NCBI GenBank assembly: GCA_020846145.1 | Contig: JADLEL010000186.1 | Coordinates: 31,779-95,778 of the forward strand | Direction: 5' to 3' | Source of the DNA: Pirellulales bacterium | GTDB lineage: Bacteria; Planctomycetota; Planctomycetia; Pirellulales; Thermoguttaceae | Length of the DNA: 64,000 nucleotides | Shown here: one piece after another, positions 8,145-32,317 of the stretch | Position numbering within the stretch: the stretch's first letter is position 1 | Layout: each line of letters opens with the position of its first letter | Position numbers and translations under genes: made by a program | Notes under the pieces: generated by a model | Database searches by the model: none | What the model saw: only the letters and a program-made list of their open reading frames with translations | Told to the model about the DNA's origin: nothing

Positions 8145-8509
8145 TCATCCGGATAAAGCGTACCCGATGATTTGGTTTACCGGGAATTTCAAGGAATGAA
8201 TCGCAAGGAGCAATGGAATTGCGCTATCGAGCGCGGATTTCCTCGATTTCGGGCCGAAGGCCCAGCCGTTCGCCCAGCCCTGGGCAACGCCCAGGGGAAC
8301 GAGGCCCCGCCGCGTTAATTCCAGGCCCAACTTTCCCGGCCGGTCTCCTTCGGGAAGGTGAACGATTGGCCCGTTGGGCCGACGCGAAAATGTTTTGCCG
8401 CGCCGTTTTCCCCAGGCGTTGCCTGGGGCTGGGCGAACTGCCGGCCCTTTGGGCCGCCGCGGCCGCGTTCCAATGGCATTAATCGGTTAGGTACGCTTTA
8501 GCCGGATGA
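8145..8509. mobile_element. MITE-like element bounded by a 20-nt inverted repeat, containing a CCCAGG(G)CGTTGCC(C)TGGG repeat pair
   Basis: TCATCCGGATAAAGCGTACC at 8145-8164 vs reverse complement TCATCCGGCTAAAGCGTACC of 8490-8509 (19/20). Confidence 0.55.
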
Positions 8510-8577
8510 ACCGTAATTATTGAACGTCGTTAGCGTTGTTCGCCGTTCTCGGACGGCGGAAAGAAAGGAGATTTCGC

Positions 8578-9231
8578 ATGGCGCGATTGGCGCGGGTGGT
8601 GGCGGCGGGGATGCCGCATCATATAACGCAGCGGGGGAACCGGCGGCAGCCGACGTTTTTCCGCGACGAAGATTACGTCGAGTACCTGGAACTGATGGCC
8701 GAGTGGACGCACGAGTGCGACGTGGCGGTCTGGGCCTATTGCCTGATGCCCAATCACGTGCATCTGATCGCCGTGCCGAAGCGCGCGGACGGCTTGCGGC
8801 GCGCGATCGGCGAGGCGCATCGGCGCTATACGCGATACGTCAATTTCCGCGAGGGCTGGCGCGGGCATCTTTGGCAGGGACGGTTCGCGTCGTTCGTGAT
8901 GGACGAGCCGTATCTGCTGGCCGCCGCGCGGTACATCGAACTCAATCCGGTGCGGGCGGGGCTGGCCGATTCGCCGCGCGCGTACCGCTGGAGCAGCGCC
9001 CGGGCGCATTTGCGGGGCAAGGACGATCTCCTGGCGAAGGTCGAACCGCTCCTGGCGCTGGCCGAGAACTGGCGCCGCCTGTTGACGAGCGCGGCGAGCG
9101 AAGAGAAACTCAAGCTTTTCCGCGCGCACGAGACCACCGGCCGCGTGTTGGGCGACGGGGAATTTCAGAAGCGTTTGGAGAAGAAGCTCGGTCGTGTATT
9201 GCGGCGGCAAAAACCCGGCCCGAAAGGATAA
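8578..9231 (+). CDS. REP-associated tyrosine transposase (Y1_Tnp/RAYT, IS200-like)
   Basis: MARLARVVAAGMPHHITQRGNRRQPTFFRDEDYVEYLELMAEW...YCLMPNHVHLIAVP; HUH motif HVH. Confidence 0.95.
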   Translation: MARLARVVAAGMPHHITQRGNRRQPTFFRDEDYVEYLELMAEWTHECDVAVWAYCLMPNHVHLIAVPKRADGLRRAIGEAHRRYTRYVNFREGWRGHLWQGRFASFVMDEPYLLAAARYIELNPVRAGLADSPRAYRWSSARAHLRGKDDLLAKVEPLLALAENWRRLLTSAASEEKLKLFRAHETTGRVLGDGEFQKRLEKKLGRVLRRQKPGPKG

Positions 9232-26926: not shown

Positions 26927-27376
26927 ATGTCTGTGAATAGTTCAACAAACAATCCACGTCGCGGCTTTACCTTGATTGAAGTCATGTTGGTCATGGTCAT
27001 CATCGTGATCCTGGCTTCGTTCGCCGTGGTCGCGGTGGGAAGAAACCGGGCGCGATCACAGATCAATCAGGCGAAGATTCAAGTAGGCCATTTCAAAACC
27101 GCCATCGAACTATTTAACATCGACATCGGCTACTATCCCAGCACCCAGTCGGGTTTGGAGTCCCTGCGCAACTGCCCGCCCGACATCCCCAATCCGGCAA
27201 AATGGGGACCGACCCCTTACATGGATACCGAGATTCCCTTGGACCCCTGGGATCAACCCTATCAATATTGCGCGCCGGGCAGAATCAATATCGATTCCTT
27301 TGATGTTTGGTCGCTTGGAGCGGATCGCCAGGACAACACGCCCGACGACATCGGCAATTGGCCGATGCAGCAGTAA
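26927..27376 (+). CDS. gspG: Type II secretion major pseudopilin GspG
   Basis: RRGFTLIEVMLVMVIIVILASFAVVAVG; YYPSTQSGLESL; DPWDQPYQYCAPG. Confidence 0.95.
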   Translation: MSVNSSTNNPRRGFTLIEVMLVMVIIVILASFAVVAVGRNRARSQINQAKIQVGHFKTAIELFNIDIGYYPSTQSGLESLRNCPPDIPNPAKWGPTPYMDTEIPLDPWDQPYQYCAPGRINIDSFDVWSLGADRQDNTPDDIGNWPMQQ

Positions 27377-27400
27377 GCGCCTATCCCAGAACCATCTCGG

Positions 27401-27473
27401 TTGGGGTGGCAGTTGTACTGCCACCCCTTGAATCGCCGGATAGCGGGGGATGGCAGTACAACCGCCACCCCAA
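27401..27473. repeat. Palindromic repeat pair (TTGGGGTGGCAGTTGTACTGCCACCCC...GGATGGCAGTACAACCGCCACCCCAA)
   Basis: Exact palindromic arms GGGGTGGCAGT/ACTGCCACCCC; related copy at 44151-44180. Confidence 0.8.
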
Positions 27474-27508
27474 CGAATTGCGGTTTGAGGATAAGTTCTA
27501 AGATCATC

Positions 27509-28180
27509 ATGGGCGATAAATACCGAGACTCGACGCGCCGCGGCCTCACGCTGATCGAGGTGATGTTGGTACTCGCTCTCATGGTCGTGATCGCCTCGTT
27601 CTGTTGGCCCGCGCTGAGCAGGGCCTTCTCCAGCCAGCGATTGAAAAAAGCGGCCGATATCGTGTGCACGCAATGGAGCAAGGCCCGCATCAAGGCGATG
27701 AGCGAAAACTGCATCGTCCTCTTCTACTATGAAATGGACGGCGGCCGATTCCGCATCCGGCAACTTAGCGACATGGACTCCCTCGCTTTTTCCCCAGACG
27801 CGGCGGCGGCCGATTCCAACGCGGCGCTCGGCGCGGTTGCGTCCGGCAGTCCGGCGGCCGAATCCGCCGGCGGCTCGTCGGATATCATCAATTATTCGTC
27901 GCCCGACGGCGTGCAATCGTTGCCCAAGGGGATCGTGTTTCGCGCCGGCCAAATCGAAAACGACAGCCGCGCCTCGACGGCGGACGTGGGACAGGTTTCC
28001 AACCTGTCGAGCGACGTGCTGTGGTCCGCCCCCATCTTTTTCTATCCCGACGGCACTTCCTCGAGCGTTCGCCTGCAAATCTGCAACGATCGCAACTTAG
28101 GCCTCGAACTCGCGCTCCGCGGCATGACGGGCGTCGCCCGCGTCAGCGATATCGGCGCCGCGGAGGGAGCCGTGCCATGA
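27509..28180 (+). CDS. gspH: Type II secretion pseudopilin GspH-like
   Basis: RRGLTLIEVMLVLALMVVIASFCWPALSRAF; position after gspG. Confidence 0.85.
   Translation: MGDKYRDSTRRGLTLIEVMLVLALMVVIASFCWPALSRAFSSQRLKKAADIVCTQWSKARIKAMSENCIVLFYYEMDGGRFRIRQLSDMDSLAFSPDAAAADSNAALGAVASGSPAAESAGGSSDIINYSSPDGVQSLPKGIVFRAGQIENDSRASTADVGQVSNLSSDVLWSAPIFFYPDGTSSSVRLQICNDRNLGLELALRGMTGVARVSDIGAAEGAVP
27986..28012. repeat. Partial GTAGGACAGGTTTCTAACCTGTC element inside gspH
   Basis: GTGGGACAGGTTTCCAACCTGTCGAGC; translated DVGQVSNLSS; same family as 28189-28245. Confidence 0.75.
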
Positions 28181-28821
28181 AATCCACCGTAGGACAGGTT
28201 TCTAACCTGTCGAGCACAAAAAGACAGGTTAAAAACCTGTCCTACCAGCCCGGTGCCATGCCCACGCTCGTCGTGGGCATGTTGCGGGATTTGGCCCATT
28301 TTCCTCATGCCCACGACGAGCGTGGGCATGGCACCCTCTTTCGTTCGTCGGGTCGCTCTGCTTTCACGCTGCTCGAAGTGATGCTTGCGCTGGCGATTCT
28401 CGCCGCCGCGCTCGCCGTGCTGGGCGAGTTCGCGCGGATGGGCCTGCGCAGCGCGAAAGCCGCCCGCGACCTGACCCGCGCCGAACTGCTCTGCGAAAGC
28501 ATCATGAGCGAAATTACCGCGGGCATTACCCCGCCCGATCCCGTGGAAAACGCGCCCGTCGTCGATCCCGTAACAGGCTCGACCCTCGACGAAATCCAAA
28601 CCGACGACGTCGCCCCGTGGATCTATTCGATCGACGTGCAGTCCATCGACGAAGACGGTTTGCTGGCGGTAAAAGTTACCGTAGCGCAAGAACTCCCCCC
28701 CGCGCAGCGCCCCGCGAGTTTTTCCCTCGTTCGCTGGATGCCCGATCCCATGCTCGACGTGCTCTACGGTTCCGCGGAGAGCGGTTCGTCGAGCACGCAA
28801 AGCACGGGCACGACTCCTTAA
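28177..28821 (+). CDS. gspI: Type II secretion minor pseudopilin GspI-like with repeat-derived long leader
   Basis: ATGA overlap with the gspH stop; FTLLEVMLALAILAAALAVLGEF after a leader of about 59 aa. Confidence 0.85.
   Translation: MKSTVGQVSNLSSTKRQVKNLSYQPGAMPTLVVGMLRDLAHFPHAHDERGHGTLFRSSGRSAFTLLEVMLALAILAAALAVLGEFARMGLRSAKAARDLTRAELLCESIMSEITAGITPPDPVENAPVVDPVTGSTLDEIQTDDVAPWIYSIDVQSIDEDGLLAVKVTVAQELPPAQRPASFSLVRWMPDPMLDVLYGSAESGSSSTQSTGTTP
28189..28245. repeat. GTAGGACAGGTTTCTAACCTGTC palindromic element
   Basis: GTAGGACAGGTTTCTAACCTGTC...GACAGGTTAAAAACCTGTCCTAC; related sequences near 46343 and 59579. Confidence 0.8.
28252..28335. repeat. Palindromic element with perfect 30-nt arms
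   Basis: GGTGCCATGCCCACGCTCGTCGTGGGCATG...CATGCCCACGACGAGCGTGGGCATGGCACC. Confidence 0.9.
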
Positions 28822-28858: not shown

Positions 28859-30217
28859 ATGAAGATACGACTCATTCGCGTCTTGATTTGCCCCAAAGGG
28901 GCAGCCATTCTCCCAGCCCAGGGCAACGCCCTGGGGAGAGTGGCGGCTTGCAACCATTACTGGCCCAACGGGCCAACCGTTTCCGGCGAACGGCTGGCCC
29001 GTTGGGCCGTAAATTATTTTAGGGATTTCCAATCCCCAGGGCGTTGCCCTGGGCTGGGAGAACCTTCGGCCGTTGGCCGAAAATATCGAAGCCTTCCGAC
29101 GTCCAAGCGAAGTAGCGCAAACCATTCCTACCGGCGCGCCTTCACGCTCCTCGAAGTGATTCTCGCGTTGGGCCTGTCGCTGGTCCTGGTCGCCGCCATC
29201 GGCACCGCGATCGCCATGTACGTGCGGCTCTTCGATTCCGGCCGCACGAACATCGAGGAAGCGCAACTCGCCCGCTCCATTCTCCGCCGCATGGCCGACG
29301 ATCTCCGCGGCGCGGTGCTTCACAGCGAGGTGGACGTGAACCAACTCGTTTCGGCGGTTGCCGGTTCGACCTCCGGGACAAGCGCAGCTTCTTCGTCCGG
29401 TTCATCTGGTTCGTCCGCGAACAATTCCGCATCGGGCGGTTCCGCGATCGACGAATCCATGCTGGATCCTTCCGCGTTGGAAGAATCGCTCGTCGATGAA
29501 CTCACCGACCTCTCCGCCACCGGGCCGCAAAACGCCCCCGGCCTCTACGGCAATGCCTATCAACTGCAAATCGACGTCAGCCGCCTGCCCCGCATCGACG
29601 AGTACATGCTGGCCGGCGATCAAGGCGGTTCCGCCGTCGATCCGTTGACCGGCGGCCCGTCGGTCGATCGCGTGAGCGATCTCAGAAACGTCTCGTATTA
29701 TATTTTCGGCGACGCGGCCACGATCGCGATGGGCGCCTCCTCCGGGATGTCGATGGGCTTCGGGCTCATCCGCCGCGACATCGACCGCGCCGCGGCGCTT
29801 TACTCCGCGCAAAACGGAATGGAAGTCGATCTCGACGCCGCCGCCGATCCGATCGCTCCCGAAGTCGAATCGGTCCAGTTCGCTTATTACGACGGATACG
29901 ATTGGTACGATTCCTGGGACTCGACGCAAAACGGCGGCTTGCCGATGGCGGTCCAGATTACGCTGGCGATCGCCCGGCCGGCGAAAAAAAACGGCGAAAT
30001 ACCGCCTCCCGGCGTTTATTCGCTGCTGGTGAACCTCCCCCTCGCCAAACCAATCGCCTCGGCCGATATGTCCTCTTCCGGCATGGAAGAGTCCGCCGAT
30101 TCCCCGACCGGATCGCAGGAATCTCCCGCGCCAGCTCCCAATACGCCCGCGCCGACGCCCAACAACAATCCGAGTCCCTCGAATAATTCTTCCGGCCAGA
30201 AAAATCCAAAAACATAA
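28859..30217 (+). CDS. gspJ: Type II secretion minor pseudopilin GspJ-like with repeat-derived long leader
   Basis: RRAFTLLEVILALGLSLVLVAAIGTAIAMYVRLFDSGR; no in-frame ATG/GTG/TTG between the repeat and this motif. Confidence 0.85.
   Translation: MKIRLIRVLICPKGAAILPAQGNALGRVAACNHYWPNGPTVSGERLARWAVNYFRDFQSPGRCPGLGEPSAVGRKYRSLPTSKRSSANHSYRRAFTLLEVILALGLSLVLVAAIGTAIAMYVRLFDSGRTNIEEAQLARSILRRMADDLRGAVLHSEVDVNQLVSAVAGSTSGTSAASSSGSSGSSANNSASGGSAIDESMLDPSALEESLVDELTDLSATGPQNAPGLYGNAYQLQIDVSRLPRIDEYMLAGDQGGSAVDPLTGGPSVDRVSDLRNVSYYIFGDAATIAMGASSGMSMGFGLIRRDIDRAAALYSAQNGMEVDLDAAADPIAPEVESVQFAYYDGYDWYDSWDSTQNGGLPMAVQITLAIARPAKKNGEIPPPGVYSLLVNLPLAKPIASADMSSSGMEESADSPTGSQESPAPAPNTPAPTPNNNPSPSNNSSGQKNPKT
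28891..29080. repeat. CCCAGGGCGTTGCCCTGGG inverted repeat pair, in-frame with the gspJ leader
   Basis: CTCCCAGCCCAGGGCAACGCCCTGGGGA near 28909-28937 and CCCCAGGGCGTTGCCCTGGGCTGGGAG near 29035-29061, plus GGCCC-type hairpins. Confidence 0.88.
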
Positions 30218-30232: not shown

Positions 30233-31948
30233 ATGATAAAGAATATCCTTCAATTATTCGTATCTTCCTTTCGCGCCGCGGAATGTTTTTCGGCCAAAGG
30301 CCGAGCGTTCTTCGGGAATAATTGGTCCGTTGGACCGAAAAGCGTTTTATGTCCACCCGTTCCCCAGGGCGTTGCCCTGGGCTGGGAGAACGGCTACCCC
30401 TTCGGGGCAAACTATCGAAACAAATCCCCGTCCCGCCGCGGCTCCGTGCTGCTCCTGGTGCTGGTGGTGATCGTCATTCTCTCGCTCGCCGGGTACACCT
30501 TTTCGGAATTGATGCTCACCGAACGCAAGGCGGCCGAACTGAGCGGGCAGAAAATCCAAGCCCAGGCCGCGGCGGAATCGGGCGCGCAATTCGCGCGCAT
30601 TTTCCTCATGAAAACCGCGGAAGACCAGACCCAACTCGGCGGCTGGTACGATAATCCGACCGTCTTTCGCGGCCTGGTCGCCGACGACGACAATCCCCGC
30701 CTCCGCGCGCGATTCACCATCGCGGCCCCCGTCGTGGATGAGCAAGGCATCGTCGTCGAAGGCCTGCGCTACGGGCTGCAGGATGAATCGTGCCGCTTGA
30801 ATCTCAACACCCTTCTGCTGGCCGACAAAGCCAAGCCCGGCAGCGCGCGGACGATCCTGCTCGGCCTGCCCGGCATGACCGAGCAGATCGCCGATTCGAT
30901 TCTCGATTGGATCGACACCGATTCCGAACCCCGCGAATTCGGCGCGGAAGCCGAATACTACGCGATTCTCTCTCCGCCCTACACCCCGAAAAACGGTCCG
31001 CTGGAAACGGTCGAGGAACTGTTGCTCGTGCAGGGCGTTACGCCCTGGCTGCTGTTCGGCTGCGACGCCAACCGCAACGGCCGCATCGATGCCGGCGAAC
31101 CCGATCCCATGAGCATCCCCGACGTCGATAATTCCGACGGCTCCATGACGCAAGGCTGGGCGGCGTATCTCACGCTCTACAGCATGGAAAAGAATCTCAA
31201 GCCCGACGGTACGCCCCGCATCAATATCAACCAAGACGACATGCAAACCCTCTATGACGAGCTATCCGAAGTGCTCACCGCGCCCGTCGTTACTTTTATC
31301 GTGGCCTATCGGCAAAACGGGCCTTATTCCGGCACTTCCAGCAACACGGCGAAACTCGCGACCGGCGAACTCGATTTGACGAAAAAAGCAAAAACGAAGT
31401 TGAAAACGATCCTCGACCTCGTCGGGGGAAAAGTGCAAGTGACTTTCAAGGGCGAGAAAAAAGCCACGATTTTGGAATCTCCCTTCCCCAACGTCCCCGG
31501 GGCGACGAGCGTTATTTTGACCAACTTGATGGATAATTGCACCGTCAATCCCGCGCCGATCATCCCCGGGCGGATCAACATCAACCAGGCGCCCCGCGTC
31601 GTGCTGGCCGGCATTCCCGGATTGACCTCCGACATGGTCGATCAGATACTTTCCACTCGCATTATGAATCCCGCCGAGGCCGACATCAGCCGCAGCTATG
31701 AGACCTGGTTAATCGACGAGGGAATCGTAACCTTAAAACAAATGAAGGATATCATTCCCTATGTAACGGGCGGGGGCAGCGTTTTTCGCGCCCAGGTCAT
31801 CGGCTATTTCGATCAGAAAGGGCCGGCCGCAAGGCTCGAAGTGGTGATCGACGCTACCGCAACGCCGCCCCGCATGGTATTCTGGAGAGATATCAGCCAT
31901 CTCGGCCGCGGTTACCCGGTCGAACTTCTCGGCACGGAAGCGGAGTAG
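30233..31948 (+). CDS. gspK: Type II secretion minor pseudopilin GspK with repeat-derived leader
   Basis: RRGSVLLLVLVVIVILSLAGYTFSELMLTERKAAELSGQ; GspK-like RLNLN and GRININQAPRVVLAGIPGL. Confidence 0.93.
   Translation: MIKNILQLFVSSFRAAECFSAKGRAFFGNNWSVGPKSVLCPPVPQGVALGWENGYPFGANYRNKSPSRRGSVLLLVLVVIVILSLAGYTFSELMLTERKAAELSGQKIQAQAAAESGAQFARIFLMKTAEDQTQLGGWYDNPTVFRGLVADDDNPRLRARFTIAAPVVDEQGIVVEGLRYGLQDESCRLNLNTLLLADKAKPGSARTILLGLPGMTEQIADSILDWIDTDSEPREFGAEAEYYAILSPPYTPKNGPLETVEELLLVQGVTPWLLFGCDANRNGRIDAGEPDPMSIPDVDNSDGSMTQGWAAYLTLYSMEKNLKPDGTPRININQDDMQTLYDELSEVLTAPVVTFIVAYRQNGPYSGTSSNTAKLATGELDLTKKAKTKLKTILDLVGGKVQVTFKGEKKATILESPFPNVPGATSVILTNLMDNCTVNPAPIIPGRININQAPRVVLAGIPGLTSDMVDQILSTRIMNPAEADISRSYETWLIDEGIVTLKQMKDIIPYVTGGGSVFRAQVIGYFDQKGPAARLEVVIDATATPPRMVFWRDISHLGRGYPVELLGTEAE
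30291..30409. repeat. CCCAGGGCGTTGCCCTGGG family element inside the gspK leader
   Basis: CGGCCAAAGGCCG...GGTCCGTTGGACC...CCCCAGGGCGTTGCCCTGGGCTGGGAGAA...CCCCTTCGGGG. Confidence 0.85.
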
Positions 31949-31987
31949 GGGAGAGGGATTAGGGGTTAGGGATCAGGGGATAGGGGA
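31946..31987. repeat. Heptamer tandem array (TAGGGGA consensus)
   Basis: TAGGGGA GAGGGAT TAGGGGT TAGGGAT CAGGGGA TAGGGGA; the first TAG is the gspK stop codon. Confidence 0.85.
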
Positions 31988-32266: not shown

Positions 32267-32315
32267 CCCCATCCCCTATCCCCCATCCCCTATCCCCTAT
32301 CCCCCATCCCCTACC
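32267..32315. repeat. Heptamer tandem array (CCCYATC consensus), inverted partner of 31946-31987
   Basis: CCCCATC CCCTATC CCCCATC CCCTATC CCCTATC CCCCATC CCCTACC ending 2 nt before the gspL ATG. Confidence 0.9.
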
Positions 32316-32317
32316 CA

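Follow-up and report, generated by a model that had tools for sequence, protein, structure and literature searches.

REPIN-like palindromic elements in the predicted leaders of consecutive pseudopilin genes of a Pirellulales bacterium

Short, high-copy palindromes of the REP/REPIN/BIME type are mostly extragenic, form inverted doublets, are linked to Y1 transposases (RAYT) and occur occasionally within ORFs (PMC3733652; PMC3116915). A 2013 survey warned that REPs assigned to N-termini are in many cases possibly extragenic and untranslated, with the start codon placed further downstream (PMC3733652). In Rickettsia, the RPEs are mobile palindromes of 105-146 bp lying in frame within protein genes, while in Yersinia a YPAL/RU-2 element constitutes part of the predicted signal peptide of YPO1552 and was suggested to have given rise to a novel exported protein (PMC2229807). 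Class III leaders, on the other hand, remain in the cytoplasm, are removed after a G/A residue by prepilin peptidase and are variable in length (PMC10191384), with a reported range of 6-26 aa (PMC4471445).

The locus described here lies in a stretch of 64,000 nucleotides, referred to as the window, from the draft metagenome-type assembly, in 224 contigs, of an uncultured Pirellulales-like bacterium. Its elements share with REP/REPIN/BIME sequences the short high-copy palindromes, the inverted doublets, the mostly extragenic position, the occasional copy in an ORF and probably the Y1 transposase link, but here a copy would be translated in a cleavable leader, in which the cleavage motif rules out a downstream start. 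They also depart from the REP/RAYT scheme in that the transposase associated with the gspK family fits the IS200/IS605 model and, in that family, the GTAG tag is set apart from the stem, although in the first gspI family it is found directly there. A tnpA gene (NF033573) between elements and palindromic ends recall the non-autonomous palindromic derivatives of IS200/IS605, in contrast to which each unit here comprises several hairpins and two inverted cores. The initial annotation of this DNA pointed to the RPEs as a precedent; the comparison is apt, since both are mobile palindromes in frame within protein genes, but the nearest kind is REP/REPIN, the translated part here falls in a leader expected to be removed, the phylum is another one and the comparison is one of description. 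As in YPO1552, a small mobile element supplies part of an export leader; unlike that case, conserved pseudopilin leaders are lengthened here, several times over. A search of a literature collection for prepilin or signal-peptide leaders containing REPs returned no earlier report, and we regard as new both the exclusion of a downstream start by the cleavage motif and the recurrence in adjacent genes as well as, through different repeats, in other genera.

The gspK leader and its palindromic element

The two features on which the argument is built are the following.

30233..31948, forward strand: gspK, 571 aa; leader 30233-30442 (70 aa), mature part beginning with S at 30443
about 30286..30411, forward strand: REPIN-like element in the gspK leader; core 30363-30381, left core deleted, as judged from aligned copies

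The gspK product matches the Pfam T2SSK_1st profile (1.7e-18) and scores below the cut-off of 130 on the NCBIfam GspK model (2.2e-25, 89.8 bits). According to the initial annotation, the gene can start only at ATG 30233, and this was borne out: the TAA at 30215-30217 shares the frame of this ATG, as had been stated, no in-frame ATG, GTG or TTG occurs from there to the RRG^S cleavage motif, and the next possible start, GTG 30446, lies within the membrane helix. In addition, no ATT, ATC, ATA or CTG codon was seen between the element and the motif when the codons were read by eye. The motif itself has the form expected of a class III signal peptide, RRG^SVLLLVLVVIVILSLAG, namely a leader ending in G/A followed by about 20 hydrophobic residues. 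Since a downstream start is excluded by this motif, expression of the gene from any standard start entails translation of the element. A REP at an annotated N-terminus is commonly discounted on account of a possible downstream start, and the gspK cleavage motif closes that escape.

The 70 leader residues originally reported agree exactly with ours, and so does the claim that they translate the element. Its extent had been given as 30291-30409 and is better placed at about 30286-30411, and it is not a whole element but a deleted form without the left core. Three observations that had been named as speaking against a translated repeat were looked for: no alternative start is present just before RRGS, the remaining part of gspK is intact rather than frameshifted, its full mature length aligning to relatives at about 60% identity with no stops, and no relative shares an identical long leader.

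The core of the element is the 19-mer CCCAGGGCGTTGCCCTGGG, of which the window holds three exact copies, or four when two mismatches are allowed (shuffles, 0.00). Genome-wide, 96 matches with up to two mismatches, 31 of these matches being exact and part of the list belonging to the variant family CCCTGGGCGTTGCCCAGGG, were found at about 66 sites, against none for the reversed-pattern control. Alignment of the copies shows the unit to be composite and about 210-240 bp long, with, in order, an outer hairpin, the inverted core, a spacer, a central hairpin around GGCCCAACGGGCC...GGCCCGTTGGGCC, a second spacer, the core and a further outer hairpin. Inverted doublets number 22 pairs, with the cores 116-149 bp apart. 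The gspK copy keeps the left outer hairpin and lacks the left core, and is therefore an internally deleted unit; the deletion would have followed the insertion. Its remaining core is an exact match to the consensus, which may mean that the insertion is too recent to reveal purifying selection.

High copy number of a short palindrome, inverted doublets at regular spacing and a mainly extragenic location, most examined sites lying between genes predicted with a simple Markov model, are all REP/REPIN features of the gspK-type element. The GTAG/CGTC tag is not found at the foot of its stem, many copies having a GYAG some 12 nt ahead of the core stem. Because the GTAG is not at the stem, membership of the REPs proper is incomplete, and we refer to the element as REPIN-like.

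Elements in the gspI and gspJ leaders

Upstream of gspK, the operon contains the following pseudopilin genes and elements.

26927..27376, forward strand: gspG, major pseudopilin, used for comparison; ordinary 13-aa leader from its ATG, T2SSG 5.8e-27, TIGR01710 above cut-off
27509..28180, forward strand: gspH-like gene; 12-aa leader from ATG 27509
28177..28821, forward strand: gspI; ATG overlapping the gspH stop (ATGA), 62-aa leader from this ATG
28189..28245, forward strand: first gspI element, a GTAG-tagged REP doublet GTAGGACAGGTT...AACCTGTCCTAC; 57 nt, in frame, skipped if the start is downstream
28252..28335, forward strand: second gspI element, a REP doublet CATGCCCACG...CGTGGGCATG with perfect 30-nt arms; 84 nt, in frame
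28859..30217, forward strand: gspJ; leader of 94 aa from ATG 28859 or 67 aa from GTG 28940
28887..29094, forward strand: complete REPIN-like element in the gspJ leader; inverted cores 28917-28935 and 29035-29053

GspG, GspH and GspI give N_methyl matches. GspI falls below the cut-off of the NCBIfam gspI model (9.8e-9, 35.6 bits; cut-off 44.35), and GspJ shows a weak T2SSJ match just under the Pfam cut-off (6.3e-6). All five pseudopilin ORFs are open to their ends.

Alternative starts skip part of the elements in both gspI and gspJ. Specifically, gspJ may start at ATG 28859, TTG 28883 or GTG 28940, with none beyond, so that, given standard starts, at least the right half of its element is unavoidably translated. 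In gspI the last possible start, TTG 28291, would leave a leader of 24 aa and skip the first doublet together with the left arm of the second, the right arm being unavoidable. The first gspI element carries GTAG directly before the stem-loop, is an inverted doublet and belongs to a high-copy family (285 genome-wide matches to the pattern GTAG-GACAGGTT-NNN-AACCTGTC), as expected of GTAG-tagged REPs; the family of the second has 124 pattern matches. Altogether, four elements of three families are found in the leaders of three consecutive pseudopilin genes, gspI, gspJ and gspK. A rough Poisson estimate for this coincidence is 3e-4, a post hoc figure which assumes that the sites are spread over 12% non-coding DNA, a percentage that is itself assumed.

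As regards the reading frame, the gspI inserts of 57 and 84 nt are both multiples of three, and for the gspI and gspJ elements no forward frame is open other than the one used, while in the gspK element region two of the three forward frames are open. Chance alone would leave all three open in the gene frame with a probability of about 1/3 x 1/3 x 2/3 = 0.07; for 21 other doublets, however, a large share of the frames is open anyway, and openness alone is for this reason weak evidence. The gspJ element is read with its core at codon position 3 and the gspK element with the first base of the core at position 2, so that the two genes translate the same family in different frames and share no common peptide. 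A conserved peptide function of the element was rejected on this ground.

When the shortest possible leader was taken for 45 prepilin-type genes of the genome and the window, found with a motif that missed gspK, the median was 14 aa and gspJ had the longest. The GspK (70 aa) and GspJ (67-94 aa) leaders both exceed the published range, which is no strict definition. Coding-potential scores of the leaders are low (-16 to 13, against 30-74 for genes), as expected for inserts, and decide nothing.

Every junction from gspG through the gspL-like gene holds elements or other repeats. A palindrome at 27400-27474 (GTTGGGGTGGCAGTTGTACTGCCACCCC...), different from the other elements, fills the gspG-gspH gap upstream of the gspH start. 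Mature gspH contains a solitary in-frame REP of the GTAGGACAGGTT family (27983-28012), read as VGQVSNLSS; the gspI leader uses this same frame. The gap separating gspK from the PilM/GspL-like gene is bordered on both sides by inverted blocks (31945-31987 and 32267-32316) of a tandem repeat with a 14-bp unit, CCCCATCCCCTATC.

Relatives and competing explanations

A GspK match was obtained in 49 of the 61 genomes searched, a few of which match only the repeat-derived leader, and a contig scan for close relatives gave a single close match, 47% identical, in a Pirellulales bacterium. The orthologue comparison called for by the initial annotation shows that gspK leaders vary, with both short and long forms. 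Short, element-free leaders, of an ordinary 10-14 aa, include MKYLQRPRRG (L029) and MRNCNLKSPPPRKG (L011, body 63% identical). One of the 67 copies of a different palindrome, CCCCTCTCCCNNNGGGAGAGGGG, lies in the leader region of genome G037, and in G002 the leader contains an interspersed repeat present at nine places; thus, counting the source genome, unrelated repeats occupy the gspK leader in three genera. When 27 gspK leader regions were scanned for hairpins at strict settings, stems were detected in G037 only. Long, repetitive gspJ leaders occur in some relatives as well. Near 340 in the gspJ start region of L010 (G037), the leader carries short tandem repeats PLALPVPWRDVC, with 113 codons open.

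We consider it likely that mobile palindromes inserted at the gene junctions of this type II secretion operon and survive translated inside cleavable leaders. REPIN-like elements would jump into the junctions, downstream of the gspI, gspJ and gspK start codons; inserts keeping the frame open would be translated within the prepilin leader; and prepilin peptidase would cut after the conserved G/A, leaving the mature pseudopilins unchanged and the insertions nearly neutral. Of the two possibilities raised in the initial annotation, the leader as a tolerated landing site is well supported by the four elements of three families in three leaders, by the unrelated repeats in two other genera and by the short repeat-free leaders of some orthologues. 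Co-option of the leader, in contrast, has no support at the peptide level, given the different frames in gspJ and gspK; a role of the hairpins in expression, at the RNA level, is possible. Processing of leaders of 70-94 aa by prepilin peptidase is a prediction that goes beyond the published 6-26 aa (PMC4471445), and the locus represents a natural test of the leader length that this enzyme accepts. It also yields a rule that can be tested about the positions at which coding sequence may admit mobile palindromes, and suggests that disposable leaders are able to absorb mobile DNA.

Such a role in expression could by itself account for the locus if the hairpins in the 5' coding region were kept because, compared with GspG, they make the minor pseudopilins less well translated or their mRNA less stable, the peptide being irrelevant. 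Repeats at each junction from gspG onwards, a leader peptide not conserved between gspJ and gspK and the precedent of REPs acting in this way between operon genes agree with such an explanation. The RNA fold of the gspK leader is also more stable than shuffles (z = -2.85, 1 of 200), but any palindrome would give such a value, and the closest orthologues are without these elements, so the role would not be conserved; on balance we judge this explanation unlikely. Still less probable is that the element is a 5' UTR, with translation beginning at a non-canonical codon after it. The survey warning quoted above and the TTG and GTG choices within the gspI and gspJ elements are in its favour, but gspK offers neither a standard start nor, by eye, any of the near-cognate codons listed above before its motif, the next start falls in the membrane helix, and accidental openness of all three elements has the low chance calculated above.

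Slightly less credible again is a decaying operon, in which gspI, gspJ and gspK have recently lost their function, as marked by the inserts. The crowding of several elements in one operon and the unmutated gspK core would fit it, but the five pseudopilin ORFs are open throughout, mature GspK aligns fully and stop-free, and three Peptidase_A24 matches in the genome represent candidate prepilin peptidases. High-copy repeats are typical misjoin points, and the copy numbers of the repeats involved are high, which would fit wrongly joined repeats in a draft genome; nevertheless, the pseudopilin gene order is the same as in relatives such as L011, the frames are continuous on either side of the elements and three separate junctions would need an error, which renders misassembly the least probable of the explanations, and a very improbable one.

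Element sites elsewhere and candidate transposases

Statements on the genome as a whole draw on individually retrieved loci. In 40 regions with gspK-type or near-variant elements, with genes called by the simple Markov model, nearly all elements lie outside genes, with the start codon after the element. Apart from those in gspJ and gspK, three gspK-family sites extend into gene starts. At L109 the signal peptide of a SCO1/SenC protein is apparently interrupted (MSIRIGLRTISKFVF / element / LFAALIVISSTLARAQ); its translation is not strictly forced, as a TTG at the element edge gives a signal peptide without charged residues. At L083 the element runs into the start of a membrane 4Fe-4S protein, and at L102 it reaches the start of an unassigned protein with a signal-peptide-like beginning. 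Relatives of the L109 and L083 proteins have mostly ordinary signal peptides, which for the 4Fe-4S protein are short in some relatives. The gene start of the 4Fe-4S orthologue in L146 (G011) reads FSFQFSIFNLQF, has no standard start in the stretch shown and resembles another interspersed repeat in the same position.

All five starts reached by an element are of the exported type, which, compared with the other sites facing a gene start, gives about P = 0.02, a value based on few cases classified by eye and open to ascertainment bias, as forced translation is more readily noticed where a hydrophobic landmark is present. For the two gspI families, with 41 and 50 sites, gspI itself is the sole forced-like case. 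We advance tentatively, and with more doubt than confidence, the wider proposal that in this lineage mobile palindromes find a general sink in cleavable export leaders, both class III and Sec. If so, translated insertions would be purged elsewhere and not in leaders, and pseudopilin leaders would grow and turn over via transposition.

As to the source of mobility, L086 contains a 151-aa tnpA with full-length gspK-family doublets on both flanks. Its product matches the IS200/IS605 model NF033573 above the cut-off and gives no match to the RAYT model NF047646. As full-length units flank both sides, the gspK-family elements are probably mobilised by this IS200/IS605-type single-strand transposase, the specificity being suggested by this arrangement. 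The window itself carries a REP-associated-type transposase gene at 8536-9231 (NF047646, 68 bits, below the cut-off of 80), adjoined at 8278-8296 by the variant core CCCTGGGCGTTGCCCAGGG, of which the genome contains a separate set of copies.
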